Part shown: positions 1 through 64,000 of the stretch, in pieces
Layout: each line of letters starts with the position of its first letter
Position numbering within the stretch: the first letter of the stretch is position 1
Assembly: GCA_002118135.1 (NCBI GenBank)
Contig: BDIU01000242.1
Location: 1,870 to 65,869 of the forward strand
Direction of reading: 5' to 3'
Source of the DNA: Trebouxia sp. TZW2008
Lineage: Eukaryota > Chlorophyta > Trebouxiophyceae > Trebouxiales > Trebouxiaceae
DNA: 64,000 bases
The notes under the pieces: model-generated
What the model was told of the DNA's origin: nothing
The model's database searches: none
What the model saw: the letters and a program-made list of their open reading frames with translations, nothing else
Program-made: the position numbers and the translations under genes

Positions 1-64
1 TTGATATTGTCTGTTGACCCCCCTGTTGGGTCCCAAGGACAGTAAAATTGATTGATTGATTGAA
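1..64 (+). mobile_element. 3' end fragment of a (GATT)n-tailed retroelement
   Basis: About 45 bases here (TGTTGACCCC, then CTGTTGGGTCCC, then AGGACAG) recur almost unchanged at 43903-43978, and both copies run into a GATT/TTGA repeat. A conserved block ending in a short tandem tail is typical of the 3' end of a non-LTR retrotransposon or of a SINE that depends on one. No reading frame is present and the left part lies outside the window. It sits about 90 bases before the start codon of the amino acid transporter. The class is inferred. Confidence 0.5.
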
Positions 65-154
65 CTTAGCCAGGTTATTTCGCCATGGACTGCTACTCTG
101 TCTCGAAAGCTGCGGAGGCTTCGACTTGAACTCGTTCGGGCGGCTGCTACAAGC

Positions 155-3100
155 ATGAAGAAGCAACAAGGTGTGCTGCCTCAGTACAATGTTAGCGGGG
201 TCGAGCACGGCGGCATCGGCACCGGCCCCACCAAAGAAGAGCTGGAAGATGACCTGCCTATCACCGCAAACCGCAGCGCAAAATGGTGGTACATTGCTGT
301 GCACAATATCACAGCTATGGTTGGAGCAGGAGTGTTGGGTCTGCCGTATGCTATGGGATTGCTAGGTGAATTCCAGCCTGCAGCACCAGCAATCGCCTGC
401 AGTAACCGTTGCAAGTGCCGCTGCTCTTGCTCCGATACGGCAAACCGCGTATTGCATGAGAGCCGTCACGTTTGAAGCATAACATGGAAAGTTTGAGGTC
501 ACGACGCGATTACGTATACGCCGCGATCTGAGGCGTGCTGACTCGACAGGCTGGACCGGTGGCACCATTGTCCTCATTGCGGCGTACATCATCTCGGTCT
601 GGACGCTCTGGCAGCTATGCTACATGCACGAGATCAACGGCAAGAGGATGAACCGGTATCACGAGCTTGGCCAATATGCTTTTGGTAAGGCCTGCTTTTT
701 TTGTGTGCTCTGAACCCACTTAAGCAGCCTTTGCATCATCTGCAGATCATCTGGAGATGGCTCCTCAAGCCTGTGTTGTGTTTGCAGGCCAGAAAGCAGG
801 TCTTTGGGCTATTATCCCGTTCCAGTTGATTGTCATGATAGGACTAGGTGAGCTTCCTCTCAGTGGTCACTGGACCGCTGCCGCGACCAGATTGGTCGTC
901 ACCAGTCATTGCCTGACTGACTCTGTCAGACCTTTAGTCACCTAACCTGTCACGCTTTTGTGAGCATGCTGTTTTCAGCTCAGTTGCAAGTTCCCCAACC
1001 CCCCATGGCAGATCAGCATGTCAGCTGACAGGCTTTGATGGGTATGTTGTACTTTTCCTTATAGTCCCAGAGGCACAATGTTGTTTGGCACACATGCTGC
1101 CAGTTGAAGCCTAGCATAAGGTGCATCACATCACAAGCATCACAGTAAGTCACTGTAGCACTGTTATGCAAGTCAGTGTCAGCAATGTCAATGCTGTTGT
1201 TTTCCCTGCAGATATTGTGTACATGGTCACTGGTGGGTCAAGTCTTCACGCAGCATATCAGCTTTTTGGTGGGACACAATCCTTTGGCCTGTCAGCCTGG
1301 ATTGTAGTCTTTGCTGCCACTGAGCTTTTATCATGTCAGGTGATGCTTCCCAAATGGATGCCACAAACGCCTTGCACATTGGTCACAGTGCACTGTCACA
1401 GGGAGGCAGATTGTCATGCTGCTGTTGTATTGAGCGGCAGCAGTCTGCCTGTCAAGTCTCATGCCATCATAACAAGAACCCCATGGCGCATCAGTAGCTG
1501 AGATTTTGTCTTGTCTCTGATACTTGTTTATTTGCTTTTCAGCTGCTGTTCATTGCTGCAATGCATCACAGCTGCTGTTTTGTGCTGTAATGTATCACAG
1601 CTGCTGTTTCTTGCTGCAATGCATGACATGCTGCTTGATCATTCATGTCTTCCTGGCCATGCATGTGGTTTGTGTCTGTAAGCTTTGCAAGCAAGCCCTC
1701 TGCAAGCTCAAACCAACACCTGTATTCTGCTGCTGCAGTTGCCAAATTTCAACGCACTGTTCATTGTGTCCTTGATAGCAGCCTTCATGTCCATCTCCTA
1801 CTCCACTATTGGGTGGGTGTCAGCAGTGGCTGAGGGCAAGGCGGCGGATGTGAGCTATGAAATTGTGGGAGGCAGCACAGCGAAGCTCATGGGTATCTTC
1901 AATGGACTGGGTACAATGGTTTTTGCCTATGGTGGGCACAGTGTGGTGCTCGAAATTCAGGTAACTGTACGGCCAGCGCAGATGCACTTGACATTCCCAA
2001 GCTGATGTCACTTGTGTGACCCTTTGTGCAAATTGTAACAAAGCGCAACACTCAGCACAGCACAGCACACCCCAACCTCAGCCAGCCTGACATGCCTTGT
2101 CATTCAAAAGCTGAGATGTTGAACTGCTCAATCACAACCTAAGATCCTGAAGTGCTCACGACTTCGCTACAGGACAGCAATAATTAGTTGCAACATCTTG
2201 ACGTCCCTGGTGTTGTGTAGGCTACTCTGCCCTCAAAGCCTGGAGTACCCAACAGCACCTTCAAGCCCTACATGTGGGGTGTAGCCCTAGCCTATGCTGC
2301 CATAGCCTACTGCTACTTCTGTGTAGCCTTTGCTGGCTACTGGGCTTTTGGCAATAATGTGGCCAGTAACATCATGTTGTCTGTGGAGCATCCTCACTGG
2401 CTTGTGGGTGTCGCCAATCTGTTGGTTGTCATCCACGTGTTTGGTAGCTACCAGGTACGTTGACTTTCACTGAAAGAATTGCATTTGCATCACTTCTGGC
2501 CTTCGCTTTTGGCACTGGAAACGAAATGCAAGCGAACACTTTGCTGGTATGAGGATCACTTGCAATCTGATACTGACAGCTGCTGACTACAGTTCCTGTG
2601 GCTGCATGCCACAGCAGCTAAGCCCCTCGTCCCGTTACCGTGGTCGTGGTCTTTTCTGAAATCCTTGTGAGCTCCTCAGGGCGTTCACAAAACAGCATCA
2701 CTGCAACAGCAAGCATGGAAGCAGGACATTGTCAAAGGCTGCATGCCTCCTCTACCTCATGTTGCTTGCTGAAGCTCATAGCTGCAGATGGGCCATCCAA
2801 TCATGTTGCCCTGCCTGACACAATTTACTTACACAATGGCATGATTGCTGCAGATGTATGCCATGCCAGTGTTTGACATGTGTGAAGACTTCTGCCGGCG
2901 GAAGAACATCAAGAGCAAGATCATCTCAAGGGTGCTGGTCCGCTGTGCCTTTGTGGTGTTGACTGCCTTTGTGGGCATCAGTCTGCCCTTCTTTGGAGGT
3001 GAGGCCCCTGTGATGCATGCATGGGCATTCTGTGAAAGGTGTTAGACGCTATAACTCATGGCCGTCTTAACAGCGTTGGGTTGCATACCTATTGCTGTGC

Positions 3101-3522
3101 ATCCTTGCTGCTCATCTTGAATCCTCATGGCTACAGTGTTTGCTGCAAGTGTTGATCAAGCCCAGCAACAGCTGTTGGACATTGTTGATGATGCTTGCCT
3201 GTCTGTGTGCAATGCTGCGTCGGTCTGCCTCTACCATAGTCTGCCTCTACCATAGACTTTACCAGGCCACCCTTTGTGACAATGTGCTGCTTGTGCTGTT
3301 GCAGACTTGCTTGGGTTCTTTGGTGCTTTTGGGTTTGCTCCCATGACCTTCTGGATGCCCAGTGTCATCTGGTTGGTAGTTATGAAGCCAAGCAAGAGGA
3401 GCTTTGACTACTGGCTCAACATTGTCAACATCATAGTCTTCGTTGCCATCATGTTCCTTGCAGCTATTGGATCCATTTACTCCATTGTTCAAGACTCCAA
3501 GAACTACAAGTTCTATCAGTGA
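155..3522 (+). CDS. Lysine/histidine transporter-type amino acid permease (AAAP family), 8 exons
   Basis: Exons: 155-365, 550-684, 788-847, 1212-1339, 1739-1960, 2221-2454, 2854-2998 and 3305-3522. All are bounded by GT-AG, every phase agrees, and the joined product is 450 aa, close to the usual plant LHT length. The family is clear from KWWY near the first membrane helix, [36 protein letters not shown], the helix with [13 protein letters not shown], and the C-terminal [12 protein letters not shown]. These proteins are proton-coupled amino acid importers of the plasma membrane with about ten helices. The start chosen is the ATG that gives a short, acidic cytoplasmic N-terminus; an earlier in-frame ATG at 56 lies in the retroelement tail and is less likely. 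Substrate cannot be read from the sequence. Confidence 0.95.
1541..1640 (+). repeat. Short tandem repeat, about 30 bp unit, in transporter intron 4
   Basis: Three near-identical units built on CACAGCTGCTGTT followed by TGCTGCAATGCATGA-like sequence. They lie upstream of the exon that starts at 1739. The array adds several CAG-type decoy acceptors but no coding sequence. Confidence 0.7.
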
Positions 3523-4362
3523 GGCAGCTTTTGACCATTGGGTATGACAGCATGTTGCAGTGCTGCAACAGCTTTGACTGCAATGGTCGTGCTTGCCAGG
3601 AGTTTATTGCTCAGGTTCTGCTGTACATGTGATTTTTGAGAAGTTGGCTGCTTTTGTGCGAGGGGTTGCATGCGGCTTTGGTCAGGCTATGCAGTCTGTG
3701 GTGTCAGTGTTTCTCTGCTCAGAAGCCCTCTGCCCCCTTTACTTCCATTGGATCCTGCCATAGGCTATAAATATTGAAGACCCTTCCTGCTTACTTTCAT
3801 GTATTATGCTTAATACAATAAATGTCGAGACTACTAGCCATATGTAATGGACTTTCAACTTTGCATTTCTGAGCTCTGAGCCCTGCTACTAAGTTGCACA
3901 TGCACGTGTTTGAGAGGCCTTGCATTGCGTGTGGCCAGGATCCGGTATCTCCATGCTGTGTACAGTGTGTGTATATTCAACATGCGCACATGGGATCATG
4001 GAGCTGAGGCAAAACTTTACACCTTGGCAGTGTTCAGCTATGTCAATGCATACATCCGCTGGATTTTGCACAAGTGTGCCATGTGCAACAATACTTTCTT
4101 TGACAGGCTGATAGCAACAAAACATACTCTTTTGCTCAAGACATAACTGCAATAGCAAGAGCTTATCACCCAATTTTTACCAAATTCGTAGCTCATATGA
4201 CTGTTTAGTCCCACTCCTGCTGTAGCGGCGATTGCGTGTCAAAGTCTTTAGTGAAACTCCTACATAAATGCACGTCCTTGCGATCACTCACGGCAGCGAC
4301 ATTAATTGTGAAGCATCGTCGATAGCCTGAAAAAACGCATACACATAGTCTAGATCAGCACC
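3523..4362. other. Intergenic region after the transporter gene
   Basis: This stretch holds the 3' untranslated region of the transporter and the promoter of the next plus-strand gene. I see no convincing exon. ORFs of up to 94 codons at 3889-4173 overlap on both strands and resemble no known protein. An AATAAA-like string (TACAATAAATG) lies near 3820 and a TGTAA at 3843. Confidence 0.6.
3843..3847 (+). promoter_or_regulatory. Candidate TGTAA poly(A) signal of the transporter gene
   Basis: TGTAA is the usual polyadenylation signal of chlorophyte green algae. This copy lies about 320 bases after the transporter stop codon. The pentamer is short and common, so position is the only support. Confidence 0.35.
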
Positions 4363-7300
4363 ATGAAAGTTCACGTTCGCACCGGAATAGACGACGGGGT
4401 AAGCTCAATGCTATCTCATGAGCGCACTCTGCTGTCAGTTCGGATGTGGAAAGCCGTTTTCCTGTTTGCGCAGAATGCATATGGAGCAGGCTATGAGCAG
4501 GAGTATGCTGCCCTAACGACTGTGGGGACCGTAGTAAAGGACTTTTGCAGAAGATTCAGCATAGCGTTTGAACATTGTATAGCCAAGAACTTTGGGACTG
4601 AGCTCCAGAACAACCAGATCATAGCAGAGGCACGTATTGCTTGCTGACTCCTGGGGTTGATCTTGGAGTTTTAGAGCTGCATTCAAACTGTGTTGAGCGA
4701 TACGCACAGCACATAGGTCCTGCTATGCTATGCAAGACCTTCTAATTGCTTGCAGGTGCCGGCAAAGCAAATTGAAGACAAATCATTCCTGACAATGATA
4801 ATGGTTTTCAAGCCCTCAATCGCCTTCTACTTGTGGCAAAGCTTCAGAAAGGGACTATGGCAGTACGTGAAACGCCCAGAAGATGCCTCATACATCTGGC
4901 AAACAGCGGCCATTGTGAGCTCGCATGGCGGCTATAGCTGCATAGTTGACACATTAGCAGACTCAACAGCACTGTCAGAGCTGTTATCAATAGATCCCTG
5001 CTTGCCGATATCAGCAGATCGGCTGTTGCGGTCTTCATACTGGAGAGAGGAAGAGGAACCTCCAGTGGTGGTGCCTGAAGCAACACAACCAGTCAGGCAT
5101 CTGCTGCTGTTGGCTCAGATATTGATACACCACGCAGCAGGCAAGAAGAAGACCCCGCCAAATCACACCGAAGCCCTAGCCCTCAGGCTGTATTGCAAGA
5201 GGCTACGTCCACAAGAAGCTGATGCTGCACTTTGGCTTCACACCCTGTCAGCAAACAGTCAGCTTGCGCCTCAATCTGTTGCTGCTCCTGGCTGGCGCAG
5301 AATGCAGCATGTTTTGTCAGAAAGTCCTGCTGAAGATGAAGTAGAGAACAAGCTTATCTGTCTGCTGCGTGGCATGCTGCTGATTGTCAAGCTTCTCAGC
5401 CTGATACACAACATCAAAGCAGAGTTTGTTGGCCATCTTGGTGAGGCCAAGACGCCACCAGCGCTCACCGCCTTATGGCAGACCCTGAGTAAACTGGCAG
5501 AAAGTGTTGACCGCTTTTCCATGGACACTAAACATATATATATCGAAGCTCAAGAGCACGAAGGGGATGCTTTTGACACAGGGCATATGGCTGAGTCAGA
5601 CAGGCAAGGCAAAATTTGTTCATTTCTTCGTTTGTTATGTTGTGTGTGCGAGCGTTTCCTCCCTCATTCACTCACTCCCTCCTAATCGTGCCATCTAGTT
5701 GATCCCTTACCAGCACATACAACACCACAAGCATTGATATTGGTGCATCACCATGGTGTTCTCCAGTTTGAACACCACAATTTTGATGACGCAATTGCTG
5801 TTGTTCGTGGAACAGGTATTCAGCAGAAACAGAGTGCCTGACTGTTCTGTTGTGTGAGCAGCTCATCTTGCTGCTACGCCAGTGTGTCAAGGAGCCAAGG
5901 GCCAACTATCAGGCGCACAGATGCTGCCGCACACTACAAGCTCTGATGAAGCCCCTGTGGACTGTCAAGGGGAGCCTGTCTGCTGCGCCTGTAAGATCCA
6001 AGGCTACAACAATGGGTATGACCTGTGCCTCTGCTAGCATTCAGAGGACAGAAAGAACAGCCTTTTCATTGAAATGCGTCAGGACACTGTGACACAAACA
6101 AGAACCTTGCTGAGTTTTGAAAGCAGGTTTAAAATTATGCACTGTCAAGTTTTGTTCAGCCGCTGTGGAAAACATTCAGCCAGATGGAATTGCAAAAGCA
6201 ACCACTGTTGTTGCAGGCAGCCTGCCATTGGCAATGACTTTGTTGAACCAGTATCACTGTTGTTATTGTTGCAGGCAGGGTACGGTTGGTGATGGCATTG
6301 CTTGATCAAGCTTTGCGATTCAGCATTTCCAAGATTGTGTTCTTGACTTTGGCATTGCTAGATCAAAGACCAGGAAAAGCCAAGGCCGCTTTTTGGGTGC
6401 TGAAGCCATGCAAAGTAACAGACAACACAAAGGCCTTGCTGGATCAAAGTTTGCCGCTTCGATGTCGTTTTGCAAAAGCCACAGTTACTGCTGCAGGCAT
6501 TGTGCCACTTATTCTGGCGTTACTGAATCAAAGCCCAGGAAAAGCCAGGGCCACTTTTGAGGTGCTGAAGATGTGTGATGTAACAAAGGACACAAAGGCC
6601 TTGCTGGCTCAAACTTTGCCAAATCAATGCACTGTTCCAAAAGCGTCAGGGACCATTGCAGGCATTGCGCCATTGATTCTGGCATTGCCAAGACAAAGTC
6701 CAGGAACAGCCAAGGTCGCAATTTGGGTGCTGAAAGTGTGGATGTACCAGAGGACACAAAGGCCTTGCTGGATGAAAGTTTGCCGCTTCAATGACGTTTT
6801 GCAGAAAACACATTTATTGCTGCAGGCATTGTGCCATTGATTCTGGCATTACTGGATCAAAGCCCAGGAAAAGCCAGAGCCGCTTTTGAGGTGCTGAAGA
6901 TGTGTGATGTGACAGAGGACACAAAAGACTTGCTGGTCAGAATGCAAGGCGTGCGCCGCCTATCCAACCTGCTGTGCCCTGATGCCACCTCAAAACCTAG
7001 TGCCCTCGGTGAGTGAAAGCATGCATGTCCTTGGGTTCTGAGCTTTTCTTCTAAGGCTTGCATTGCTGATTCTTCTTGTATGGAGCACATGATGCAGAAA
7101 ACTCTTGCAGGAGTTGCGTGCAGCCATTGTACAGCCAACGAAGCAATATCCCAAAGCAAAGCAAAGCTGATGGCCAAACATGATGCCAAACGCTTCACCA
7201 TTGCAAATCATGCAAAAGCAAACAGGATGTGTGTGTTATGGGAGCTCATCTGAAGCTGCATTGTGCCCTGCAGCAAAAGAGGTTTTCACGATTCTACCAG

Positions 7301-10300
7301 AGAGCCCCCAGCCAATTCAAGGTTGCTTGCACCAGGCCAAACACATGTCAGAGGTGGTTGGGGTGATTCGATGGATAATCGAAGATCAGCCTAAGCCAAA
7401 TGCAGCAGCAACACTTCAGCAAGCTGATGCAGCCTCAGGACCAATGATAGCTTCACAAGATAGCAGCACACAGCAATCACTTGGACAATCAGTGAGCAAG
7501 CTTGGGCAGCTTACGATTGGTGATCTGCTCAATCTTGATGCATCAGTGAGCAACAGTGGGCGGTCTGCAGTTGGTGATCAGATCAATATTGATGAATCAG
7601 TGCGCTACATCTCTGCTGATTCTGGTCAGCTCAATCTTCCCGGATCAGTGGGCGATCATGAGCAGAGTACAGCTGGTGATCTGCATAAGCTCGATGAATC
7701 AGTGGGCAATGATCGGCAGTCTACGGTTGATGATCTGTCTGATTCTAGTGAGCAGCTCAAGGCAGATCCAAACTCGCTTGCTAAGCTGCCTCAGCCTTCA
7801 TCAGGCTTAGAACCCGTCAGGGAGCTCAAAACCGGCCCCCTATCTGACAGCGACCAGCAGGATTTGACTGTGCCTTTGACTGAAGCAACACAGCCACAAA
7901 CTCTGACAAATGATCGAGGATATCCTGGTGCACCCTTGACATCAGCTACTGAAATGGTCAATGTGCCCACAGCTGGCAATGCGCATCCACCACTTGGTGC
8001 AGCAGCAGGTACTGACAACTTGTCAACTGACACACACCTGCTAGCACCCAATGAGCCAGGCAAAGCTCTACCTTCAAAGAAATACAGCAACCAACAAGCT
8101 ACTGCTGAAACAACAGAGAGCTGTCAACAGTCTGTTGGTAAAGCGCCTGCCAGAGGCTCCTCAGTGACAGCATTGAAACCAGCTCAGCCAGACAGTACTC
8201 AGCAGCGTTCTGCTGAAGTGGAAGGAGAGTCAGAGCTAGTACAGCAAGCTCATGCTGTGCATGAGTCCAAATGCTCTGACTGGGCGCTCACAAGCATTGA
8301 AGACCTGCCCACGCCGTCTCAGATTGCATGGCAGGGATTGGAGTCAATTGCTCTCAGGGCTGCTGTGGCTCTGCAATGGGTGGTGGCCCTTCGCCCTGAT
8401 GTCAACCCCTCTCGTTCGACAGATGAGAGCATCACCGACCAAGGGTTACAAGAGACTCTCGTGTCGCAGCTAGTCTGGCTGTTTCACAACATGCTGGCAG
8501 GGCACTGGCATGACATGTCACTGAACATGAACAGGATCTTCCAGCTGGCGCTTGCAGCACCTCTGCATACTCACACTGCAAGCCAAGCTGACGTCACAGC
8601 TGCGCTGCTGCCAATGCTGCAGCGCTTAGCCACTGATGAGGGGCTGGTCAAAGCCCCAGACGCACCCCAAGATTCCTGGCAGCAGCAGCAACAACACCAG
8701 ACTGGCATTGTATTGGCTGCGATGTTTTGTAAGCCTCTTCCAGCACTTTGCTGCGTGCACATTGATGCAGGCATGGCGTCAAGTCAAGGCGCGAGACCGT
8801 CGTGAGACATGCATGTGGGGAGGCAGTGTGCGCATTCTATCATCTGGCCACTGCTCTGCAAAATGCACCTGCATGTCACGCAGCATTTGCATGAATGAGG
8901 TGATGCACATCATCATGGTATTATTGGTGCCAAGCCATGGCTGCTGCTCTGTCTGCTTGGCTCAGGATCCATGACAAGCAATGACCCAACAGCATAGACG
9001 TGAAGCAGGAGCAAATGCAACAGCACTTGACTTTGACATAAGCACCCTCAATGCATGACCGTCAGCTTGGTGAGCACCTGTTCTGATGGCTTGTCATTGT
9101 TGCATTTGCCTTCCATTTGCTCAAGAGCCCAAGTGGGCAAGCATCTGTGCACTGATGTGCAATGACCCGAGCTCAAAAGCCCAGTGTCCAGCATTTTAAG
9201 CATGCACGCATCGCGCATTGGTGAGCAATGGCTGAAGAGTCTAGGCATGCAAGCATTGTGCACTGTTCTGCAATGGCGTACAAAGGCAGTCATGGAAGCA
9301 TAGTGCTTTGATGCTCAGCAGCTGAAATGCCAAAACATGCAAGCGTTGCGCGTTGATGTGCAATGCCTGCAAAGCCCTAGTAGTCAAGCATGCAAGCATG
9401 GTGTGTTGATGTGGCCTGGCTGCATAGCCCTACCAAGCATTGTGCGTTGATGTGGTTTGGACCAAAAGCCCAAGTGCCCAAGCATCAATGCGCAATGGCC
9501 GCAAAGCCTTAATTTCTGAGCATGCAAGAATAGTGCACTGTCGAGCAGAAGTCTCATCATGCAAGCATCGCGTATCATAGGGCAATGGCTCAACAGCCCA
9601 AGTATGCAAACATTGTGCATCAATGTGCAATGGCTGCAAAGCCCAACCATGCAAACATTGTGCATCAATGCGCATCGCTAGTCCTCCTATGCTGCTGCTT
9701 GAGCATTGCTGGGCTGCCTGCAGGGCTATGCTGCCTTGCGACTTCAGAGAAGAAGTTCAAGAATCCCCCAAGCCAAGCATTGCGCAGTGCAGTAATACAG
9801 GGACTGTACGCCTGGTTTTCAGTTGACTCGCAGTGCGCATTTCTGTCAGCTAACAAAGCCGACCTGGCTCCAGCATCGTGGTGTGGTGCACTGCAAGCAT
9901 CAGACAACATAGCAGATCGGCTGAATTTATGCGCATGCTATGCTAGGCTCTGCTCACAGGCTGCAGCAAAAAGCGGTTATCCTGAAATGTTTGGGAACCT
10001 GGGATTCCAGGCCAAACAGGCTACACATGAGCTGCAGGTTGCAACCTTCCACATCGAGACACTATCCAATCTGCCGGCTTTGTCAGAGGTAAGGCAACCT
10101 GAGCCCTAGGCAGGACAGCTGTGAATGAGCAGTACTGAGCTGCTGTTTGTCTTCTTGCACGTCATGAACCAGACGGCTTTGGCTTGCAGAAGGTTGTAGC
10201 TTTAGTTCCATGGTCGCGTTCATGCATGCGCTTCATTTGTCTGCTTGCAAGTCCTATATGCAAAGCATCCTGCTTGAACACAAACTGCAGATGCTCATTG

Positions 10301-13300
10301 TGTCGTTGTTATGCTGTGACAGCGAGTGCATTTGCCCACTTGATGTTTTGATACAGGGTCAGAGACAGATGCTGCAGGGCCAATGATGTGCAGCCAGTGC
10401 ATGTGAATGCTGTTTGTACATCAGATATGGGGTGAATGAGGCGTAGCCAGTAATGCCTGTGGCTTTACAACATGGGGTCAATGATAGATTGCCTAGGGCT
10501 ATCAAGGCACAACCAATGCATCTGCTCAGTGTCTGTGGTGCATTCACAGGCTCGGTTCTGAACGTCGTAGGGTCTACGAGGCACAGCCAGATTTCTGCTT
10601 GATGTTGGTGTTTTAGACTTTGGACCGCTGCTAGTGCTGTGAGGGCATGATGCACATTGTGTGTATGTGCAGGTACCCATGCCATGGAATGATGACCTCT
10701 GCTTGGCAGTTATCAGGGCGCTGTTCAGATGTTGGGAGTCCAAGAAATTTGAGGTGCGACTCTTCTGGAAGCTGTGAGCTCCTCTCAAAACTTGAAAAAG
10801 CTTGATTGCCTTGCGCTTTGGAATGTGCTGTCACTGCTCCACAAGGCTGGCAGGCATTTACAGGTAAAGCTTAAGCCTGCTTCACTGTACCCATTTTGCA
10901 ATGCTTTTGACCTCAAGCATATGCCATGCATGCTTCATGCTTCATGCAGTGCATGGCTTCGGGTCAATGACTAGCATTCCCAGCTGCACGCTTGCAGCAG
11001 AAGTATCCAGGCTCTCTGAATCGCTTCATGTATTTATGTGGGTCAAGCTCGTCCTCAGAATCTTGCCCATATGCAAGGAAGTTCAGCGCAAAGAGGCTGC
11101 TTGGCCAAAACAGTGTTACAGTAATCTTTGATGTAAAGATTCTCGCTATTAGCAGATGTAAATTGAGATGGATCACTACATTCTGACTGCAAGGGCAATT
11201 TCAAGTCGCATATTCTGGTGTCAAGACGTATTTTTGGGCACCAAATGGAGTTGTTGCGTCACAAAATCACAGTAGAACCACATGTTCTGCTGGCTGCAGT
11301 CTCAGCTAATCAGCTCAATTCAGGTGCTGATCAGTGCCACGCCTGTTATAGTAGATTTGTTCTGAAGCCAAGCTATCTTTCCTTTTCTTCTGTATGCAGA
11401 GGCATATGCAGTGCCTGTTGGCTGCAGTCTCAGCTTGTTGTTTCCTTCAAGGTGCCCATGATGCAGCAGTTCAGCTTCCTGATGCACAATTTGCTCATCC
11501 TAACGCCAATGCAAAGCCTGCGGCTGCCCCCGATGCTGATTTGCTTCGACTTTAGTGAATTTTGCTCAGCCCTAAGACATGCTCTGCTGGCTGCAGCCTC
11601 AGGCTGTCATCGTCTTCAAGGTGCCCATGCTGCAACAGCTCAGCTTCCTGATGCAGAATGTGCTCACCCTGACGCCAATGCAAAGCCTGCAGCTGCCGCC
11701 GATGCTGGTTTGCTTTGACTTAAGTAAATTCTGCTTGGCCCTAAGGCATGCTCTGCTGGCTGCAGTCTCAGGTTGACATCGTCTTCAAGGTGCCCATGCT
11801 GCAGCAGCTCAACTTCCTGATGCAAAATCTGCTCACCCTGACGCCGATGCAAAGCCTGCGGCTGATGCTGGTTTGCGTTGACTTCATGTGAATTCTGCTT
11901 GGCTCTAAAGACTTGCTCTGCTGGCTGCAGTCTCAGCCTGTCATTTCCTTCAAGGTGCCCATGCTGCAGCAGCTCATCTTCCTGATCCAGAACATGCTCA
12001 CCCTGACTCCAGTGCAAAGCCTGCGGCAGCGGCTGATGCTGGTGTGCGCCAACTGCATGTCGCAGCTGTTAGAGGAAGACCTTGCACAATCCCCAGACGC
12101 ACAGGTCGGCTGTAACATGGTGGCACATGAGCAAGATAACTTAGCCATTGACTACATACTTGTTTTCTTGAGGCATAGGGTGAATGCGCCGGCCATACAA
12201 CATGCTTGTGCAGCTGTACCTCATAGGTCAAGCTTTGCATAGGATCCTTGTGATGGCTGTTTGATGTGTCAGTTGCTACGACCTGAATATATAGTTGCCT
12301 GCTTCCTGTTGAGTGTTTGTTGTATCTCCACATCTGCATGTCATCAATGCAATTGCAAACATTGCTTGATAAACTCCCACACTGTGGTGTAGGCTGCTTT
12401 CAAAGCTGTTGTTGACCTTATTCCAGCTTACTTCGACCATAGGCCTCCGCACCTGGACAAAGTTGCAGAAGCTGAGATTGGGCTGCCAAGCTTTGACTTC
12501 ACTACAATGTCTGAAGCAGTTCTGAATGCTGCTGTGCTGTACATGACCAGTCGCAATGACTGGCAGTACTTCAGGCAGCATGCGCTGGTCTACAGCTCGC
12601 ACTTCTATACAGCAATGGTCACCAACCAGATGAAAATCACAGCTGCAGACAAGGATGCAAACCCCTGGCCAGAGCTGCATGCACTGTTTGGATACTTAGC
12701 AGCTTTTGGTGAGTCAGCCTGCATGGGGCCCTCAATCATGTGTCCAGTGCCCAAATCAAGTTGTGCACCGCTGCAGCTGCGCGTGTTCTCAATGTCTGTG
12801 CGTGCATGGGGAATGTGTGAATTTCGTCGCTGTGTGGCAAGATGTTGTTTGCCCTGTATGCGCTCTGATTACACACACATCAGTTACACAATGTTGCTTG
12901 TACAGCCGGCGTCAGGGCTGTGTAAGGTACAGACTTCTTGACTTGCTACGTTTGGCCAAAGATCCGGTCATACGGCTTACCTGCAGATCTATGCGCCACA
13001 TTGCATGTAACTGCGCTTGCAGTCTTGCACGCTAATGTTGAGTTGTGTGATGTGCGCAGGGACACATCACCCTGCCATTGCTGGTGCTCTGTTGCTCAAG
13101 ACAAGCCAGCAGCCAGCGCAAACATTGGAAATGCTGCAAGAGACAGAAGTGAAATTGTGTGGCTATATCAGGATGAGCATGGCTGCAGCTTTATCTCTGG
13201 TGTTCTTTTGGTGCTGTTCAATCTGCAAATTACACCAGGACATCATGTCACATCAACAGGTGAAGCATATGGCCCTTTCCTCCATACATGGTTTTTCGTG

Positions 13301-47300: not shown

Positions 47301-48652
47301 CAGCAGGGTCAAAGCAAGACAGTGCGCTTTGAGCTGCATGTATTGGCAGGCTTAATACCACAGCCCATACGGCACCAATGCATTCTCAGCCGGCCTCTGC
47401 TGACCCTGTCAGTCTTCTTCACCGGCTGTGCCTAGATGTTTGGCTCATCACAACTGTTGAGATTGCAGGGCCAAAGCAAGACATTGCGTTTTGAGCTGCA
47501 TACATTGGCAGGTCTACGGCCCAAGCCTGTGCAGCTAACCTGCCCCAGCATTCACTGCATACTGATGACTCAGCCAGCCACTGCTGACCCCGTCAGTCTG
47601 CTTCGCAATCTGTACCCACATGTCAGACTCCTCACAATTTTGTTGACATTGCAGGGACAAAGCAAGACAGTCCGTTGTGAGCTGCATGAATACTACCAGA
47701 GCCTGTGCGGCAGTGTTGCACCAACATTCACTGCATGCCAATGGCTCAAATGCCAACTGCTGAACCAGTCAGTCTTGTTTGGGGGCTGTACCCAAATTTC
47801 AGACATGTTGACACTGCAGGGCCAAAGTAAGACAGTGCGTTTTGAGCTGCATGCATTGGCGGGTCTATTGCCAGAGCCTGTGCGGCAGTACTGCACCAAC
47901 ATTCACTGCGTAATGATGACTCAGCCGCCTACTGCTGACCCCGTCAGTCTTCTTCGGGGGCTGTACCCAAATGCCCGCCCCCAGGAGCTTTCCAGAGTGG
48001 CATCTGACTTCATGGGAATGCAACTGTCTTCAGAGGTGCTGAAGAAGAAGATGATTGAGGCTGTGGTGGAGCAGGTGTTTGCTGGGCGGGAACTTCGACA
48101 TAAGAAATGGTGTGAGGTGTGTATTGCATTTTAAGCTTCAGACACAGAAGGAATTGGGCATGCAAATCAATTATCAGCGGGAAGCATTTCTTTTGCTGGC
48201 TGTACAGCAAACCGCCTTTATGAAGATGGTGTTGGATTAGCTAGGAATTCAGGAACACAAGGATGTTGAGGAGCAGGACAACGCTTTGCAAGAGCAAAGA
48301 TTTTAGCAATGTTTGTGCATAAGCGCCGTGCACATTGCTGAGTCTGCTTCTGCTTCACTGTAATGCATCTCCATTCCTGATGCAAGTTCGCTAGCAATTC
48401 GGCAAACTTCATTTGTATCATGCAGAAATTGAAGGCAAGCCCTCATAGGAGGAAGGAAGAATGGGATCGTGAGGATTTCACCAGCCTGTATGTGCACACC
48501 TTCAGGGGCGAAACAGACGCCTTGGCAACATCCCTGTGCGATGCTGTATGTCCAGATGAGCATGTGTGGGACGCTTCACTTAGTGTCATGGCTTATGTCT
48601 TATGCTGTCTTGATGTTGCTGAGATGCAGTATGAGGATGAGCCTGATGACTT
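41367..48652 (+). CDS. Coiled-coil protein of unknown function, multi-exon
   Basis: Phase-consistent exons: one ending 41945, then 42433-42702, 43203-43334, 44202-44376, 45124-45313, 45758-46117, 46891-47077, 47820-48116 and 48426-48652. Exons from 42433 to 45313 encode long helices rich in Gln, Glu and Ala (AEELQKLSEQLEQQLKLANN, WREQLEDMQQQLDRVHVAHQ), which look like a coiled coil. The 45758 exon is a Ser/Pro-rich linker. The last three encode a helical C-terminal part (MSLPSLLQLLAAWTAD, SSEVLKKKMIEAVVEQVF, HTFRGETDALATSLCDAVCP). A donor at 48653 implies one more exon, not found with confidence. The start is unclear: ATG 41367 opens a short exon, while a frame with LRSTRFTTALDSSLQ begins near 41712. 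A cytoskeletal or basal-body role would be a guess. Confidence 0.65.
42255..42432 (+). repeat. Two upstream copies of the exon 42433 start
   Basis: TTTGCCTGCAG followed by AGTCTGGTGGAGGTTGT (about 42266) and GGTCTTGTGGAGGCTAT (about 42350) precede the used GGTCTCGTGGAGGCTGT at 42433. The period is about 85 bp. Encoded text is SLVEVVLKDAL, GLVEAILTGAL and GLVEAVLNELL; the first two run into stops. Confidence 0.95.
42750..42820 (+). repeat. Downstream copy of the exon 42433-42702 donor end
   Basis: The exon ends with ADEAAAASKAAVAAMQERHE at the donor 42703. ADEAAAASQTSVAAMQERHE is repeated at about 42752-42816. The copy has lost its GT. This exon therefore has copies at both ends. Confidence 0.95.
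43903..43978 (+). mobile_element. (GATT)n-tailed retroelement fragment in a coiled-coil gene intron
   Basis: It shares TGTTGACCCCCTGTTGGGTC and CGAGGACAG (versus CAAGGACAG) with 1-64 and ends in GATTGATTGATTGATT. It lies between the exons ending 43334 and starting 44202. Fixed core, variable tail and dispersed positions suggest retroposition. No coding part is present. Confidence 0.55.
44605..45123 (+). repeat. Three upstream copies of the exon 45124 start
   Basis: Copies start near 44609, 44820 and 44969. All keep a GCAGAAGCACTGGT-like start, GTGGTGCTGAATGCCAAGCT and GAGGAGTATGAGGAGAGC with changes. The third lacks the segment for VLNAK. The used exon reads VLEQQLGVVLNAKLEEYEES. Spacing is about 150-210 bp. 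Confidence 0.93.
45390..45595 (+). repeat. Downstream copies of the exon 45124-45313 donor end
   Basis: The exon ends VALKQYINNYIQ at GTAAGT. CTTGAGCAGTGCATCAGTAG with a GTAAGC (45393-45445) and GCTCTTGAGCAGTACATTGC (45543-45590) are further versions of that end. The first retains a good donor and could be used. Exon 45124 has copies on both sides. Confidence 0.75.
46600..46890 (+). repeat. Upstream copies of the exon 46891 start
   Basis: ATGCCCACGGGATGAGCCTG at about 46607 begins a good copy (SLPSLLQLLAAWTADL, then broken). A short remnant, CCACAGGATGAGCCTGCCC, lies near 46775. The used exon starts after CCTTCAG at 46891 and reads MSLPSLLQLLAAWTADKRL. Confidence 0.92.
47304..47819 (+). repeat. 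Three upstream copies of the exon 47820 start
   Basis: CAGGGTCAAAGCAAGACAGT (47304), CAGGGCCAAAGCAAGACATT (47466) and CAGGGACAAAGCAAGACAGT (47653) each begin a copy of 130-155 bp ending near GTCAGTCTGCTTCG-like text. The used exon begins CAGGGCCAAAGTAAGACAGT at 47817. Each copy has frame changes; all keep the CAG acceptor. Confidence 0.95.
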
Positions 48653-55076: not shown

Positions 55077-55658
55077 TCAAATGCCTTTGCATTCCAGGCA
55101 GAAATGCCTGACATCTGATTCTTCATAGTCAGGCATTGAACACAGGCTGCAGAAAGTCTTGCTGCATTTACAGCACTGCTGCATGCTGTCAAGCCCTCTT
55201 TCATGAGCCCTGCAAAGGACTTTCTTTGTTGGCTCTTGAGTATGTTTTATTGACCGAATTGAGCTGCTGCGTAAAAGGTGCAAATTTTGGCAGTGAACAT
55301 GAGCCTGGTGCTTACCCACAGTGATAACAGTGCTGCAGACCTGTGCTCTGAGTGCGCGTCACGCCTGTACGAGCATTGGGTTGGTAAGATCTGTCTGAAA
55401 GTTTCTGACTGACAGATCTAGCTAGGTAGCACCTGTTGTTGCTGCCTGTTTCTTGCTTTGAGCTTTGGAGGCAGCTAACATCTCAGCAAATGGGTCCACT
55501 GCACACACGGTCAAGAATTGCAAGGAAACGTGCGAAATCGACTCAGCTCAAGCGCAGGCTTCAGCTGATCAGTCATGAATACCTTTGGCACCGGTCTGCA
55601 CGTACTGCTTGAGTTGAGGTTGATGGCTTGCTTCCGACTCTCGTTTGCGCTTGGACAT
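55077..55658 (-). CDS. Small Cys-rich, Siva-like zinc-binding protein (85 aa)
   Basis: Three exons, 55583-55658, 55316-55364 and 55077-55209, with GT-AG ends and matching phases, join to 85 aa. A basic N-terminus (MSKRKRESEASHQPQ) is followed by a cysteine array: CYHCG, then CCKCSKTFCSLCS, YEES and FCLEC near the end. The spacing resembles the C-terminal part of the apoptosis regulatory protein Siva family, which binds zinc. The Siva assignment rests on cysteine pattern and length only. It faces the PPR gene across about 130 bases, so the two may share a promoter. Confidence 0.75.
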
Positions 55659-55789
55659 GCGCCCAAAATTGTTTAGATGACTGCTTTGCCATGGACAGAC
55701 GCAAGCTTGAGGGAAAGGTGAGGTATCAATACTAAGATATCTTTCCCACACGACGATGCTGAGCTGCTGAAATCGAGCCTGCAAAACAA
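55659..55789. promoter_or_regulatory. Short divergent promoter (Siva-like / PPR)
   Basis: 131 bases separate two outward-facing start codons. This must hold both transcription start regions unless the true PPR start is further down. No TATA-like box is clear. Confidence 0.55.
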
Positions 55790-57256: not shown

Positions 57257-57892
57257 TGGCTATGCTGTTGAATGTTGCCTGCCCTGAAGGCATACATGGC
57301 TGCCTCCTCTGATGCCGCCCTTTCTGACTGGACATAGCGCTGCTTTCGCTTGGGACTGCTGAGCTGTAGATGATTTTTTCCAGCTTTGCCCCTGAATGTC
57401 TGCGGGAAACTCAAGTTCTGTTGCTTGTTTTTGCTTAAAGACATTTATGCTTTTCAGACTGCAATTTCATGCACCCAGGACAAGACCCCCTGAATATATG
57501 TGCCCCTCAGGTTTGCATTGTCTGTTTGTCCACTTCATCTGGGCTAGGCTCTCAAATGTTTCTGTATATGTCAAAGTCAATGTGTGCAGCCTTAAAGCCT
57601 GCAAACTTGCACAGCAATTGCTGCCTTGGCGTGCCTAAGGATGAATTGTAATGAATTCATGCGATTCTGTTAGTTGAAGTCCATAGTGTGCGCTGCAGCA
57701 GCTGACACTGTTCAGAATTCTTCACAGCACAGTGATCTGGGATAGTCAGGGCAAACCTAAGCAGCAATTTGACAAGAGAGCATTGAGACACAATGACCTC
57801 ACAGTATCGTATCAACAGTTGACAACTTATTTGTTGCATGCGCAGCAAGCTAGCATGCATCATGCTGAGAGTTTTGTCAGCACTACATTTGC
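57257..57892. other. Convergent intergenic region (PPR / PLAT genes)
   Basis: It lies between a plus-strand stop and a minus-strand stop, so it should hold two 3' untranslated regions. The open frames of 60-80 codons here show no motif. Nothing else seen. Confidence 0.55.
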
Positions 57893-60800
57893 CTAGTGCA
57901 GTGCCCCAATGCGCTGAGATCTGGCAAGCCCAGCCTCCAGCAAGGGCTCCTGCTCCCGCTCAGCAAAACGAGAGGGGCTCAGCCTGCGTCCAGACGTGCC
58001 TGCTGTCCAAGGCGGTGCTGATGACCTCACAGACTGACTCCGTCGACCAGTCAAGCCCTGCTTCAAGCTTGGCATCGGCTGCTTGACTCTCACCATGGGC
58101 GAGTAACTACTGTCTAGACGAGGTACCACGTTCTCAACACCCTGCTGGACAGGACTACGTCTTCGACGGCCGCCATCGATGCTTTGGGCGGCCTGCAATC
58201 GCTCGCCAAGCACATCCGTGCCTCTGTCGTCATACTGTGAAGCCTGCCTGGTCCTAGGCGTTCGTGGCTCGCTAGTATGCTGCCAGGCATCTGGCTTCTG
58301 CTGCAGTGCTTGAGTATCCAGCCTGGCAGGTTTGAGATGCTTGAGGGGTGAGGATTTCTGGCGCCCTGTGGCAGTCAAGTCCTGCCTGCCAGTGGCAGAC
58401 ATCTGCTGGGGCTGTCCAACACGCCTGAACATAAAAAGGAAGCTAAGCATAAGATCTGGCCAGCCAGCCCTGTCAAACAAAGCAAGGCTTTCTGGCTGAT
58501 AAGTATTCTTCAAGTCTACCGTCACGGTGATTCGGCATCACATTGTCAACATGCGCACTTGCCCCACCTATATTGATCAAACGCCTCCTGGTACTTCTGC
58601 TCCCAGCCTTTCATTGGTGCCACCCCAGACACCAGATGCTGCTGCAGCTGCTGTGGCTGCTGCTGCTGAAGTTGTCGAGCCGTAGCAGCTCTGTAGGGAG
58701 AAGAGCTGGGTCTGGCAGGAGCATTGTGTCTGACTGTGCGATGAGTCGGTGACACTGGCCGGCGAAGGGGCTTGAAAGGACTGACCTCTGTCACCTGCAT
58801 CAATTGCAATCGTCAATTTGCTGTAGATCTCATCAAACTCATTTCAAATTGGGAACAGATATGATATCAAACATCAATATTTCAAGGAACTACATCTCTT
58901 TGACACTACAGACCTAGCCATTTGCAGGCTTCTGTTCAGACCTCTGCTCAAGCTCCAGCAAGTTTCAAGTGCACTATTGTTGCGTTACAGTAAAGTGCAA
59001 CAAGCTTCCAGCATCGTGTCAACTGTATGGCTGCTCGACCGTGCAAACATATTCAAGCAACTCTAAGCTGATTGCCTGCAGCTGTGCATCCTTCAGCCAT
59101 GCATTGGCTACTCAAATTGCAGAAGACATTTGATTTGATCTATGCCTTTGCTTGCAAAGACAAAACATCCCAAAGAAAATCAAAAGGAACATAGCCAGAC
59201 TAGCGCTTTGTTGAGTGCAGATATCGCCATACGATATCGCTCAGTCATGAACAAGCAAGCGTGGCAACACAGCACGTGTGCCACACAAAATTAGCACACG
59301 TGCTATAGAGCGTGAAACTTGTTAATGGCTTTTGCTTCCATGGACACCTCAGTCCCAACAACCATACATAAGGTCTGCAAATGTTGCATGTGCTGTTTGT
59401 GAACAAAACTTTGTGCACGTGTAGGGGTGGGTAAGTGACCAGACCTGTGCAGGGTAGACCTCTGCAACCCTCCAGTCCTGAGTCTCAACTGGTGGGAGCT
59501 GCACCCATGGCTTCAGCAGCATCCTCTCATTCCTGCAGTTCTTGTTCACCCATTCTCGGCAGTCAAACACATACCGGATGTTCGTGGCCAGATGCAGCAC
59601 ATCCACGTTCCTGCAAGCACAGCCTTTGTGAATCTGACAAGTCACTGACCAACATTCCAGGAATGCAGTAGGTCTGGGTTAAAATCAAGGCAGGACAGAT
59701 CGGGCAACAGCAAGAGAGCCTGTCGTTGCGTGGCATACATGGCCCTCTGTCAATGCTGCAGCTCTCACACACGCCATGTGCTCAGATCATTGCAATGGCT
59801 GAGTGCATACGGTATTTTTATTTTGTACCAAGAACAGCCTTGACAAATGCGTGCGGCATGATGCTGCAAAAGCCAGCATTGTTGCAAGCAAGCTACTGCA
59901 TCATATCACTGAGGTCATGCTGCTAAATGACGCCAAACCGTTATGTTCTGCTTGAGTGCAAATCTCACTTGAGATGCCAGCCAGCGAAGAAGCCTGCTCC
60001 ATCAGTGAACACCCTCAGCCTTTGGGGCTCCCCCACATAGGGCATTTGGGGGTAGGTGAAGGTGTCAACTGCCCCTGCTTTGAAGCTCTTTTTGGTAGCA
60101 GCCGGTACCACCACTCCTGTGCTACCCAGAGAACCCATGAGCTCAAAGTACACCTGCAAGCATGAGCCACATCTGCCAAGTGAGATGTGGAGAATGGTCA
60201 ATCAATGTGATGATTATGCTACTGGCTGTGACGGCAATACTGAGCACACCAAGCATGTGAAAAGCACATCATACATTGACAACTTGCCAGCACGCATGAC
60301 AGAAGCTGAACTCTGACTGAAGTAGTTTTGACAGGTATTGAGGTCATAGTAAATCTGGCCCTGACATTGCACGGCAACAGCAATTGTGACCGCAAGCGCA
60401 GCGGCATCTTTATACTTGATAATGTCATGCCTTGTGAGAAGTTGCTTTGCGCAGGTCTTGTCTGCCGGGATCAAGCTATCGTCAGCCCTTGAACGAAAAA
60501 ATGGCATCACTGCTGTTCAATGTGCAACATGGTAGAGATACAGGATGTCTTGGAACTGTGCATGTGTATGCCAGATATATTGTAAATGTATGTGTCTACC
60601 TGTGCACCAGTGCCAGCAAAGCACACTGAGCTGGTGTTGAATGTGAGTCTGTATCCGCCTTCTTCCTCTTCCCCCTCGTTTTCCTGGCCTGAGGCTGCAT
60701 CATACTGCACTAGGGCTGTTTCAGGCGCCGACAGGGCTTCTGCTTCTGCCCTGACATGTGGCTCTGCTGTGGCAGAGCGCATGAAGTTGATGATAGGCGC

Positions 60801-63207
60801 TTCCTCATTCCTGCCAGTCTGCTTCAGCCACCTGCTTACGCACAAACAAGTTTTGCGATTGCCTGGATTGAAGCTGAATTGCACTGCATTAGGACTGTTT
60901 CAGGCGCCGACAGGGCTTCGGCTTCTGCCCGGCCATAGGGCTCTGCTGTGGCGTAGCGCATGAAGTTGATGATTGGAGCTTCTTCGCTCCTCCCAGTCTG
61001 CTTTAGCCACCTGGTGCAGCATAGATGAGATCACAGAAGTCTGCTTCAAGTGAGCACAGCATGACATAAGCTGCTATGAAGCACAAGCAAAGCTGCAATG
61101 ACAAGCTTGAAACCAGCATGCTATGCAGTGCACCACCCAGTGATGACCTGCTTGAGTGACATACACGCCTGCATGCATATTGCTACCAATGTCTGGCAGC
61201 ATTGCTTGTAAACACAGCAGCAATGCATAAAGCTATCAGCAATGCATCTTCCAACATTAGTGCGCTGGATGCCATGTACATATCATTGGGACCACAGCAG
61301 ACGTCTTCATGCATGATGATGGCAAGAGTAGCAAGTGGACTGCATACACATATCATTGGTCCTGGTGACATGTAAGAGCGGTGGTGAGCAGCAGGCCATG
61401 CATGACGAGAGCCCTTGTGATTGGCTTTGAGCACAAGTAGGTCTGTATGGAAGTGACATCTGTGCTTACAGCATATGATTCAAAGATGCATTACAAACAT
61501 GAGAAGACCACTTGTTTGTGTGAGAGGGGTGGGCAAGGTCAGATGTCTGAGCTACTGTCTTGTGCAAGATGATAGTGAAGCACTACCTGTTGCACTGAAA
61601 GGTGGCTGTCTCTCCAGTGTCCAGATTGGTGACTCGCAGCCAGGCCAAATGCCAAGCTGCCCTAGGGCCTTCCCCATCATGCCCCACCTCCACCTGCATC
61701 GCAGAGCATGAGCTTGTTTGAGCTCACAAGCAGGACAGCAAATAAGGCTGGAGCAAATATACAAATTGCAGAAGCATGAGTGCTGCTGGTGCTCGTGACC
61801 CCCATCAGAGCTTGCCCGGCTCTGGCAAGGTCAGGCAAGAATGACGGCAATCCCAATATGCATCTCAGCAGCAACAATGACAGCAATACTTTGGGAGACC
61901 AGAGCAACGCCTGGGCCAACCAATGATATTGTGGGGACCTTGACCGCAGAGGCAGTGCAGGGCTGCTGCTCTGCGAACAGCAACATGGTGCAATCAGGGT
62001 GACCTACAAGGGTCAGCCTTGCAAGCTGCAGTGCTTGAGTGGTTGTACAGGAGTCAGTCCTGTGGCGTATGATATTTGGGGGAGCCATGTCACGAGTGGC
62101 AGCGCATGAAAACGGTGGCCAGGACTGGCTGACCTGTTGGATGGGACCAAGGTCAGGCAGCCCATCAAGGGTGATCGTGTCCAGGCTGCCTTGCTGAAAG
62201 TTCTGCCCATCGTTCACCATCTGAAAGGGCCCTGCCTCGCCCATTCTGCCGATCAGGGAAATCACGCCATTGGCGGAAGTGCCAGCGCCAGACAAATCGC
62301 TGGTCTGCAGTTCAATCTGGTAGCTGCAGTCCACCAGCGGGTAGAATGTGCGCTCAGTTTTGCCATCGCCTTGAGTTGCATCCAGCCAGGCCTGGCATTT
62401 GAAGGTGACGGTCTGGTTGGTGATACTGTTGTGCACCACCACTTTGCTCAGGCGCCAGCCAGACTCAATGCCTGCGTACCCAGCAGTGGCTTTGTTGAAG
62501 GAGCATTTGGACTGGTCAAAATGTTTGTCAGAATCAGACTGCATTGAAGAGCAGGTTGCCAAGCAACTCCGGCTTGGACATGAGCGTACGCTACAGCATG
62601 TGCTGCAATTGATTCAGGCTATTTCTGAACCACACACAGACCACATGTACACATACATGGTGTTTGGACCATTCTGCATGATCAAGCTGCTCCTTGATGC
62701 GTCAAGGCTGCGTGACACTGCATCACACCAGGTGCAATACGCATGAAAGGACAGCATCAAGCATCTATCCTTTGTTTGCCATCCAGAAGGAATTTGATCT
62801 TTGCAGCGCACACAGTGGGGACCCATGCACATGGCAAACAGTGCAACAGAGTGATCAAAGAGTCGTTGCACACCGTCATCATTATGTCCAATCTGGATAA
62901 AAAGCATGCGCCCCACATCGGCGCCCTGCACAGTGCAGGTCTGGGACATGCCCCTCACAAAAGCCCCTCCTGATGGGTTCAGCCCCTGCCGGCCAGTGTC
63001 ACCTTCGTTCCCATGCACCACAATGTGCGCACTGCAGTCTGTGCCAGCGCCTGGCAGGTCGCTGGTGTGGACTTGGACTGTGTAGTCAGCAATGTTGCAT
63101 GCGATCGGTGCATCTGGTCGGGTAAAGACAGCGGCAACTGGCGGCTGAGGGTCTGAGGAGCCTTGCATGGGCATGTTGGCAGATGATTCTGGCAAGGCGT
63201 CACTAAT
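57893..63207 (-). CDS. Multi-PLAT/LH2-domain protein, 5' end not found
   Basis: Exons: 62874-63207, 62134-62471, 61587-61693, 60600-60831, 59969-60153, 59445-59610, 58568-58794 and 57893-58424. Every junction is GT-AG and in phase, giving 706 aa from an internal start. At least three PLAT domains are visible: YTVQVHTSDLPGAGTDCSAH to IQIGHNDDG with SGWRLSKVVVHN; YQIELQTSDLSGAGTSANGV to VEVGHDGEG with FQCNRWL; and YRLTFNTSSVCFAGTGAQVY to VFDCREWVNK. PLAT domains are beta sandwiches that bind lipids or membrane proteins; many in a row occur in LOXHD1-like proteins of cilia. The C-terminal 250 residues are Gln/Pro/Arg-rich and disordered. The first exon here starts at an acceptor, so the true start lies upstream, perhaps beyond 64000. 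Confidence 0.9.
60890..61012 (-). repeat. Upstream copy of the PLAT gene exon 60600-60831 start
   Basis: A CACCAG acceptor at about 61012 begins WLKQTGRSEEAPIINFMRYA, matching WLKQTGRNEEAPIINFMRSA at the used exon start. The copy holds about 118 bp, is open to SAPET, and then reaches a stop without a donor. Both acceptors fit the phase of the preceding exon. Confidence 0.93.
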
Positions 63208-63510
63208 CTGCATGCAGTGTCAACAGCAGCTGTGAACGGCAACACTGTTTAGTGATTCTGCTGAGGCGCCCTTAGCCTGCATAAGTGTGCAACAGCAGCT
63301 GAGAACGGCAACGCTGTTTAGTGATTCTGCTGAGGCGCCACTAATCTGCAAGTGTGTGCAACAGCAGCTGAGGAAAAACAATCCTTACAATTTTTCTGCT
63401 AAGGCGCCATTAGGCTGCACATATTTGCAAGAGCAGCTGAGAAAGGCAATGCTTCATAGTGAATCTGCCAAGGCGTCACTAGTCTGCATGCAGTATCAAC
63501 AGTACCTGAG
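63208..63510 (-). repeat. Four upstream copies of the PLAT gene exon 62874-63207 start
   Basis: Units of about 75 bp at roughly 63250-63275, 63325-63350, 63400-63415 and 63465-63490 repeat the junction GATTCTGC then AAGGCGTCACTAATCTGCAT (plus-strand text) with its CAACAGCAGCTGAG intron part. They lie upstream of the exon in transcription order. Plus-strand ORFs through this array are by-products. Confidence 0.93.
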
Positions 63511-64000
63511 GAAAGGCAATGCCAAACGACAGGCAAATCATACTCAGCTGACATTGATGGCAAACAGACAGCAACACCTTAGAGCCAAGGTGAGTGAGGA
63601 GACAGGGCTGCACATGCATTGCCGTGGCGCACAGCAAATGCATCCCGTCAATTTGTCAGCAGTGGTGGGCTTGACAACTATAGTGTCACAGAAGGACAGT
63701 GCATCCGGCTATTTAGTGCTCATTGCAAAGAAAACGTTGCTGCTGCTGACACCCCTTCAGCAATCCAGAACAATATTGGACAACACAGGCAACACCCCGA
63801 AGTTGCAAAACAACAGGACGCACAGACAGTCAAGCAAACCAGATAAACGATCAGACCATCTTCAAAGCATCCGTGCTTGCTGACTCAATGAGAAGGACAG
63901 GAGCAGGTGATATGGTGGCTTTTATTTTTCAGACAGTCAGCTCATACTGTTGGAGTGCTTGCTGCCTGCGTTCAGGGCTCGCGGTCGGCAAACTTTGACA
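63511..64000. other. Right end of the window, no exon assigned
   Basis: It should be intron or upstream sequence of the PLAT gene. I found no minus-strand exon with a good donor feeding the acceptor at 63208. A plus-strand frame with VTEGQCIRLFSAHCKENVAA (about 63690-63760) and a perfect plus-strand donor at 63590 were seen but have no supporting context. Confidence 0.4.

Follow-up and report, generated by a model that had tools for sequence, protein, structure and literature searches.

The introns of a 64-kb stretch of DNA from the green alga Trebouxia sp. TZW2008 hold tandem, decayed copies of the ends of adjacent exons together with adjoining intron sequence, which raises the question of what process places them there and whether it builds introns. 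The stretch, hereafter the window, belongs to contig C233 of a 68.5-Mb genome in 527 contigs and has a guanine plus cytosine (GC) content of ∼50%; its genes are spliced and its DNA is nuclear, from a relative of the algae found in lichens, and the Trebouxia A48 genome has been reported at 69.1 Mb with 49.68% GC. In this study, we analyzed the window together with 17 further stretches of 10 kb from the same genome, giving a pooled sample of 234 kb. Our analyses suggested that these copies are probably best explained by small tandem duplications that arise pervasively and pass through a filter of purifying selection acting on the spliced message.

Self-alignment, which the original prediction had proposed as its own check, showed that the arrays are real. 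When the window was compared with itself by BLAST, 74 of 75 forward self-matches were spaced by less than 3 kb, and the self-matches merged into 27 local arrays of direct repeats, which together occupy 14.6% of the 64 kb. Arrays were present in all but one of the 17 other stretches (coverage 0–38%, mean 13.7%) and are therefore not peculiar to the window. The pooled sequence contained 99 arrays, where a single order-3 Markov control built on it contained none, and 222 matches at offsets of 45–560 bp versus 16 at 560–3000 bp, with four inverted local matches. Among 101 scored arrays, a list from which 11 arrays had been removed by a complexity filter that takes out long units too (6334–6936 and 9119–9674 are absent from it), the middle half of periods was 114–179 bp with a median of 149 bp, and the number of copies ranged from 1.3 to 4.7 (5th–95th percentile), which roughly fits the 65–210 bp and 2–6 copies first described. 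The best identity was 75–90% in 88 of the 101, and periods showed no bias toward multiples of three (32/30/39 modulo three). Near-identical copies at many unrelated loci, the mark of introners, were not found: two array sequences searched across the 68.5-Mb genome each matched their own locus only, and all but one of the forward self-matches were local. Adjacent direct copies inside one gene, as in internal duplication, were found. The arrays are thus local, direct duplications of tandem type that occur well beyond the window, and no sign was seen of a transposon or an introner family behind them.

The WDR3/Utp12 gene on the minus strand, whose exons were fixed by PDB alignments independently of the repeats, carries four junction-spanning arrays. 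An acceptor-side array of ∼3.7 units of ∼182 bp (34243–34928; self-matches at offsets of 181–184, 363, and 543) crosses the acceptor of exon 34376–34104 and has three decayed copies upstream of the used copy, all of which retain TTGCAG. The used exon (34104–34376, translation ending in FTAGK, placed by PDB alignments at about 34374–34099) aligns to human WDR3 (PDB 7mq8) with 129 bits, the decayed versions of its first half lying upstream; its 5′ part falls within the acceptor-side array and its last 61 nucleotides within a donor-side array known from self-matches (33793–34164, period ∼146–149 bp, two copies downstream). Self-matches and PDB alignments together also placed a donor-side duplication of period 99 bp (35669–35831) at the exon ending near 35796, where the exact donor is not fixed, and a donor-side array of exon 40533–40333 with offsets of 129, 164, and 293 bp (40035–40404). 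Another array of ∼128-bp units (38162–38609) is intron-only, as it overlaps no homology-supported exon, although the gene finder calls it spanning.

A second gene, at 41528–48650 on the plus strand, was delimited by tblastn of three Trebouxia proteins; the proteins found for it all came from Trebouxia (A1-2, C0005, and C0004), at 43–52% identity with a query containing some decoy pieces. Where these homologs include a repeated exon end they carry one copy of it, to which the window adds as many as three decayed ones. Self-matches and homologs revealed five junction-spanning arrays in this gene. Exon 42433–42702 has an acceptor-side array of period 82 bp (42209–42458) and a donor-side copy at an offset of 117 bp (42632–42815). 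An acceptor-side array of period ∼152 bp (44609–45237) places copies upstream of the used exon 45124–45313 (ALVLEQQLGVVLNAKLEEYEES...), exon 46891–47077 has an acceptor-side copy at an offset of 274 bp (46587–46938), and an acceptor-side array of period ∼162 bp (47300–47973) puts three copies upstream of the used exon 47820–48116 (GQSKTVRFELHALAGLLPEPV...). The prediction of such arrays in at least seven genes was thus borne out in these two homology-checked genes of the window, the structures of the others, and so of most of the seven, coming from the gene finder only.

In all 22 mapped copies, three of whose junctions are not exact splice sites (C431 2823, WDR3 5605, and 1026 in the Trebouxia-like gene), the spare lay upstream of an acceptor or downstream of a donor, as had been proposed. 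This placement needs no special process, because tandem duplication leaves only the outer copy joined to the remainder of the exon; the apparently constant rule is what any junction-crossing tandem duplication has to look like so long as the protein is preserved. The original prediction had named the copy attached to the exon remainder as the used one, and that copy is indeed constrained. In comparisons of several copies, changes found in the used copy alone were distributed 15/7/55 over the three codon positions, as in a working exon, versus a much more even 149/124/190 for changes private to spare copies. Identity within arrays was 0.81 in the exon part and 0.75 in the intron part. None of 49 copy pairs spanned a whole exon, so that duplicated alternative exons were not observed. 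An origin of the spares from spliced RNA was set aside: among the listed self-matches, none was noticed that links the flank of a spare with the neighboring exon, and no further test was aimed at the idea. The phosphoglucomutase gene (PGM; L016 7749–8562) has ∼4 decayed copies of an exon start, one of them ∼93% identical in its exon part, and this array is among the youngest multi-copy arrays we met.

These patterns suggest a simple course of events. The genome would undergo, or would have undergone, frequent small tandem duplications with units of ∼80–260 bp (median 149 bp), presumably through replication slippage, unequal exchange, or end joining. Duplications within coding sequence would mostly be lost, and those within an intron or across one intron end would be tolerated because the spliceosome could still join the copy that is continuous with the exon remainder. 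A duplication across an acceptor would have to leave its spare upstream and one across a donor would have to leave it downstream; splicing would pass over most of the spare sites. In the sampled genes the spare copy decays almost neutrally, and the used copy stays constrained. Existing introns would in this way grow longer, new introns not being seen to arise, and better survival at exon edges would cause most of the excess of arrays at junctions.

The size of this excess depends on reliable exons. A first gene finder ran separate genes together; the two-strand version that took its place still reads decayed copies as exons (for example, 34590–34739 and 11428–11451) and errs both ways in WDR3, where two intron-only arrays were called spanning and one spanning array was called intronic. 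Because decayed copies are taken for exons, the main counts were restricted to homology-supported genes, a set of 19 gene pieces with 111 exons and 92 introns. A search with PF00118 (CCT chaperonins) provided a gene sample picked without regard to repeats, with 63 exon matches and DNA for 20 loci; splice-site models were trained on 29 introns, and several of these chaperonin genes carry the same kind of arrays. PDB searches supported exons in four further genes from random stretches, namely ABCG, in which the match leaves some used exons uncovered, VPS41, in part (a strong stretch at residues 404–573 and a weak one at 157–223), PGM, and SufB. The choice of the used VPS41 exon near 2360 leaned partly on human VPS41. 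The structures of the TM9SF-like, SDR, and COPE genes are those of the gene finder, and we assume these names, like those of other genes known just as translations; a PDB search with the TM9SF-like protein gave no match at E 1e-10.

Within the homology set, 32 of 42 arrays (76%) overlapped an exon end by at least 10 nucleotides and thus spanned a junction, and the other 10 were intron-only. This count leaves out three arrays in counted introns that a similar filter removed (ABCG 5842–6397 and VPS41 3570–3679, both intron-only; PGM 7749–8562, spanning) and, at the last exon listed, three further arrays that span a junction (ABCG 6556–6797, VPS41 6626–6976, and C431 2705–3102), and it scores as intron-only an AGC-rich WDR3 array, which was excluded from the gene-finder set of 80 arrays and included in the test of exonic reach. 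With the complexity filter off and the AGC-rich array out, 33 of 44 arrays inside listed introns were spanning; adding the three at last listed exons gave 36 of 47. The recount found no exon-internal arrays in the 19 pieces.

Such an excess might instead mean that duplication itself favors exon-intron junctions, for example by coupling to transcription or splicing, so that exon ends enter introns faster than intron interiors are copied. A sliding-unit null, in which a unit of the same length is moved over collapsed introns, expects just 17.8 spanning arrays of the 42 (P = 4e-6), and 6.7 of the 24 arrays detectable from intronic sequence alone, of which 14 span (P = 8e-4); donor and acceptor sides are about equally represented (7 and 8 of 15). 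This null was dropped as too simple for a final test and replaced by simulation. It is too low because the used exon part is constrained, so that copies stay recognizable longer, because the exon-joined copy cannot be deleted, and because long introns may owe their length to older arrays that are no longer recognizable. When duplication and deletion were simulated as uniform and decay as neutral, 51–63% of arrays were spanning over 10 parameter sets and 54–64% over four sets in another run, which closes much of the gap, and the share was 0.38–0.50 for the intron-detectable arrays (P = 0.035–0.27). Much of the density at junctions is therefore expected from neutral turnover, in which exon-anchored copies decay more slowly and survive better. 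The exonic reach of the units also fits a uniform distribution (Kolmogorov–Smirnov P = 0.57 in the homology set, n = 15; P = 0.18 in the gene-finder set, n = 30). A mechanism aimed at junctions was not shown, and we consider a junction preference unlikely.

Several results nevertheless weigh against pervasive duplication filtered by selection as a complete account. The observed 32 of 42 lies above the simulated 51–63% in most parameter sets (P = 0.001–0.05), and the recounts stand likewise (33 of 44, P = 0.001–0.065; 36 of 47, P = 0.0003–0.035). The gene-finder set goes beyond all ten simulated sets with 64 of 80 spanning (P = 6e-4 or less) and 33 of 50 in its intron-detectable part (P = 0.016 or less), a share that is suspect because decayed copies get read as exons and bias the classification. 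A modest junction bias beyond neutral turnover is hinted at. Identity exceeded 90% in six of 101 arrays and 95% in none, where uniform ages predict ∼24 and 12%; the arrays accordingly lack the homogeneous copies of a minisatellite, and the scarcity of near-identical arrays may reflect a past burst, contraction of young arrays, or assembly collapse. Of 42 copies whose exon side matches well, 17 agree at no more than 8 of the 16 intron bases next to the junction, despite 77–92% identity in the exon parts; 11 of the 17 sit in the ABCG and VPS41 genes. When the whole presumed intron part was aligned in 19 copies of low extension, six beat shuffled sequence by at least three standard deviations and 13 failed. 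Nor are the spares perfectly neutral, third positions differing at 0.30 versus 0.22 for first and 0.18 for second positions. Faster loss of intron parts by insertions and deletions, or former coding use, could lie behind homology that stops at the splice site. The latter belongs to the view that some spares have, or lately had, a function as pieces of exons (through alternative splicing or as regulated poison exons), since function would allow exon homology to outlast intron homology. In line with it, the ratio of second-position to second- plus third-position changes was 0.243, a coding-like value, in 30 copies whose match extends at most 12 nucleotides into the intron, versus 0.342 in 14 intron-homologous copies (Fisher P = 0.03), and 16 of 22 spare copies retain the splice dinucleotide (0.56 expected per copy). 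However, in 29 of 31 cases the spare site has been lost or its use would break the frame or meet a stop, frameshifts occur in 7 of the 30 short-extension and 7 of the 14 intron-homologous copies, and differences between spares are nearer even by codon position than those of the used copy, which makes functional spares quite improbable. On the side of description, exon-end copies at L015 (minus strand, 1393–1619) and L004 (minus strand, 5171–5481 and 6626–6976) are 87–92% identical, the match ending within ∼5 nucleotides of the splice site and the intron sequence beyond being unrelated or unrecognizable. A broader picture, in which exon ends are a main source of intron sequence, duplication is biased to junctions, young arrays are quickly lost or date from a past burst, and intron length is the balance of exon-end duplication and deletion, appears doubtful to us.

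Whether introns are built in this way was assessed in the 92 introns of the homology set. Introns with an array had a median length of 536 bp (n = 38) versus 291 bp for those without (n = 54; P = 2e-7). Recognizable copies made up 22% of the 43,760 intronic bp and exon-derived sequence 9%, too little for the proposal that local exon repeats are the main form of intronic DNA. Classical intron gain, in which introns are tandemly duplicated exonic AGGT segments, is the known mechanism nearest to our finding (PMC3443670 and PMC4974935), but its signature under the Rogers model, donor sequence repeated at the acceptor one intron length away with AGGT duplicated, went beyond chance in none of the 92 introns, whether the end of exon 1 was compared with the intron end or the intron start with the start of exon 2. 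One intron scored 0.525, above the control's 99.5th percentile, where about half an intron is expected, and below the 99.9th (0.53). Array periods also differed, by eye, from the lengths of the introns inspected, and we hold this explanation to be very improbable. Even less credit is due to an assembly artifact or a dispersed repeat family, for which one may cite two Ns in the window and the missing near-identical arrays: the copies are mostly 10–25% divergent, which misassembly does not yield, and the two tested array sequences were private to their own locus. Tandem duplication under purifying selection on the message thus lengthens existing introns, and it does not appear to create new ones. 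An intron-building process was therefore correctly foreseen as regards longer introns and spare splice sites, and not as regards intron gain.

Across the window, structures from the gene finder made 20 of 26 scored arrays junction-spanning, four intron-only, and two exon-internal, and the exon assignments of the following arrays come from the same source. A plus-strand gene that we take to be U-box-like contains an array of ∼165-bp units (6334–6936) and one of ∼169-bp units (11415–12060) upstream of predicted exon 11931–12104. Two units of the latter matched that locus only in a genome-wide search, and no homolog of the gene was found in the search made for one. On the minus strand, two-copy duplications cross predicted exon ends at 28337–28725 (offset 195 bp) and, in a PLAT-domain gene, at 60677–61013 (offset 179 bp); the best database matches of the PLAT-domain gene (57893–63207) were fish proteins named lipoxygenase homology domains 1b. 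The window genes also include a kinase-domain gene. The gene at 155–3522, presumably an amino-acid permease judging from its translation, has a single small intronic array (1540–1635), and array density thus differs between neighboring genes. Repeats within predicted coding sequence at 26568–27108 and 7488–7735, one Ser/Pro/Ala-rich and one with a 54-bp unit, are protein-level repeats and not intronic copies. Perfect ATGCTG and AGCAC microsatellites, an AGC-rich tract, and a G-rich run occur at 20248–20310, 35048–35108, 36488–36651, and 38801–38850; the AGC-rich tract near the WDR3 gene is predicted to code for poly-Ala, and the G-rich run lies in a stretch whose translation has an unknown residue.

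The origin of intronic DNA is seldom traceable, and here more than one-fifth of it in the checked genes was traced to local duplication and ∼9% to the neighboring exon; since the copies are traceable, the growth of an intron can be retraced one copy at a time. The arrays are also a warning for annotation, as gene finders read decayed exon ends as exons, which happened repeatedly here. Intronic minisatellites likewise form tandem arrays with units of moderate length, from which the alga's arrays differ in that their units often contain exon ends, with a median of 149 bp, mostly 1.3–4.7 copies, and 75–90% identity in 88 of 101 cases. In a partial literature survey of titles and abstract openings, we recognized no description of genome-wide decayed exon-end copies in introns, and the main texts of two Trebouxia genome papers do not contain "tandem" (PMC11523091) or "tandem repeat" (PMC12712428). 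Direct repeats of 4–30 bp described at intron borders (PMC11782384) are shorter and otherwise placed than the alga's copies. Tandem duplication has been described as a route to new introns (PMC3443670; PMC4974935; PMC2891723). Internal gene duplication in eukaryotes, credited to Gao and Lynch (2009, as cited in PMC4974935 and PMC3443670), shares with our arrays the tandem duplication inside genes, which is reported to be common and able to take in whole introns (PMC4974935); here, however, partial exon ends persist as decayed spares in existing introns, at 32 array sites in 92 introns, with no new intron seen. In Drosophila, tandem duplications that likewise reach exon sequence and are filtered by splicing are reported to create new intron positions at proto-splice sites (PMC2891723), whereas those of the alga were not seen to do so. 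In vertebrate ATP2A1 and potato RdRp, as reported, a duplicated segment can also hold an intron end and an exon start (PMC4974935). The potato RdRp duplicate inherits the parental acceptor and gains a new intron and exon, whereas the alga's spare stays within the old intron; a tandem duplication of 83 bp within an intron of that potato gene left the gene's structure unchanged (PMC4974935). The elements of the process are therefore already known, and its density and the passive lengthening of introns that results look like a new form of it.

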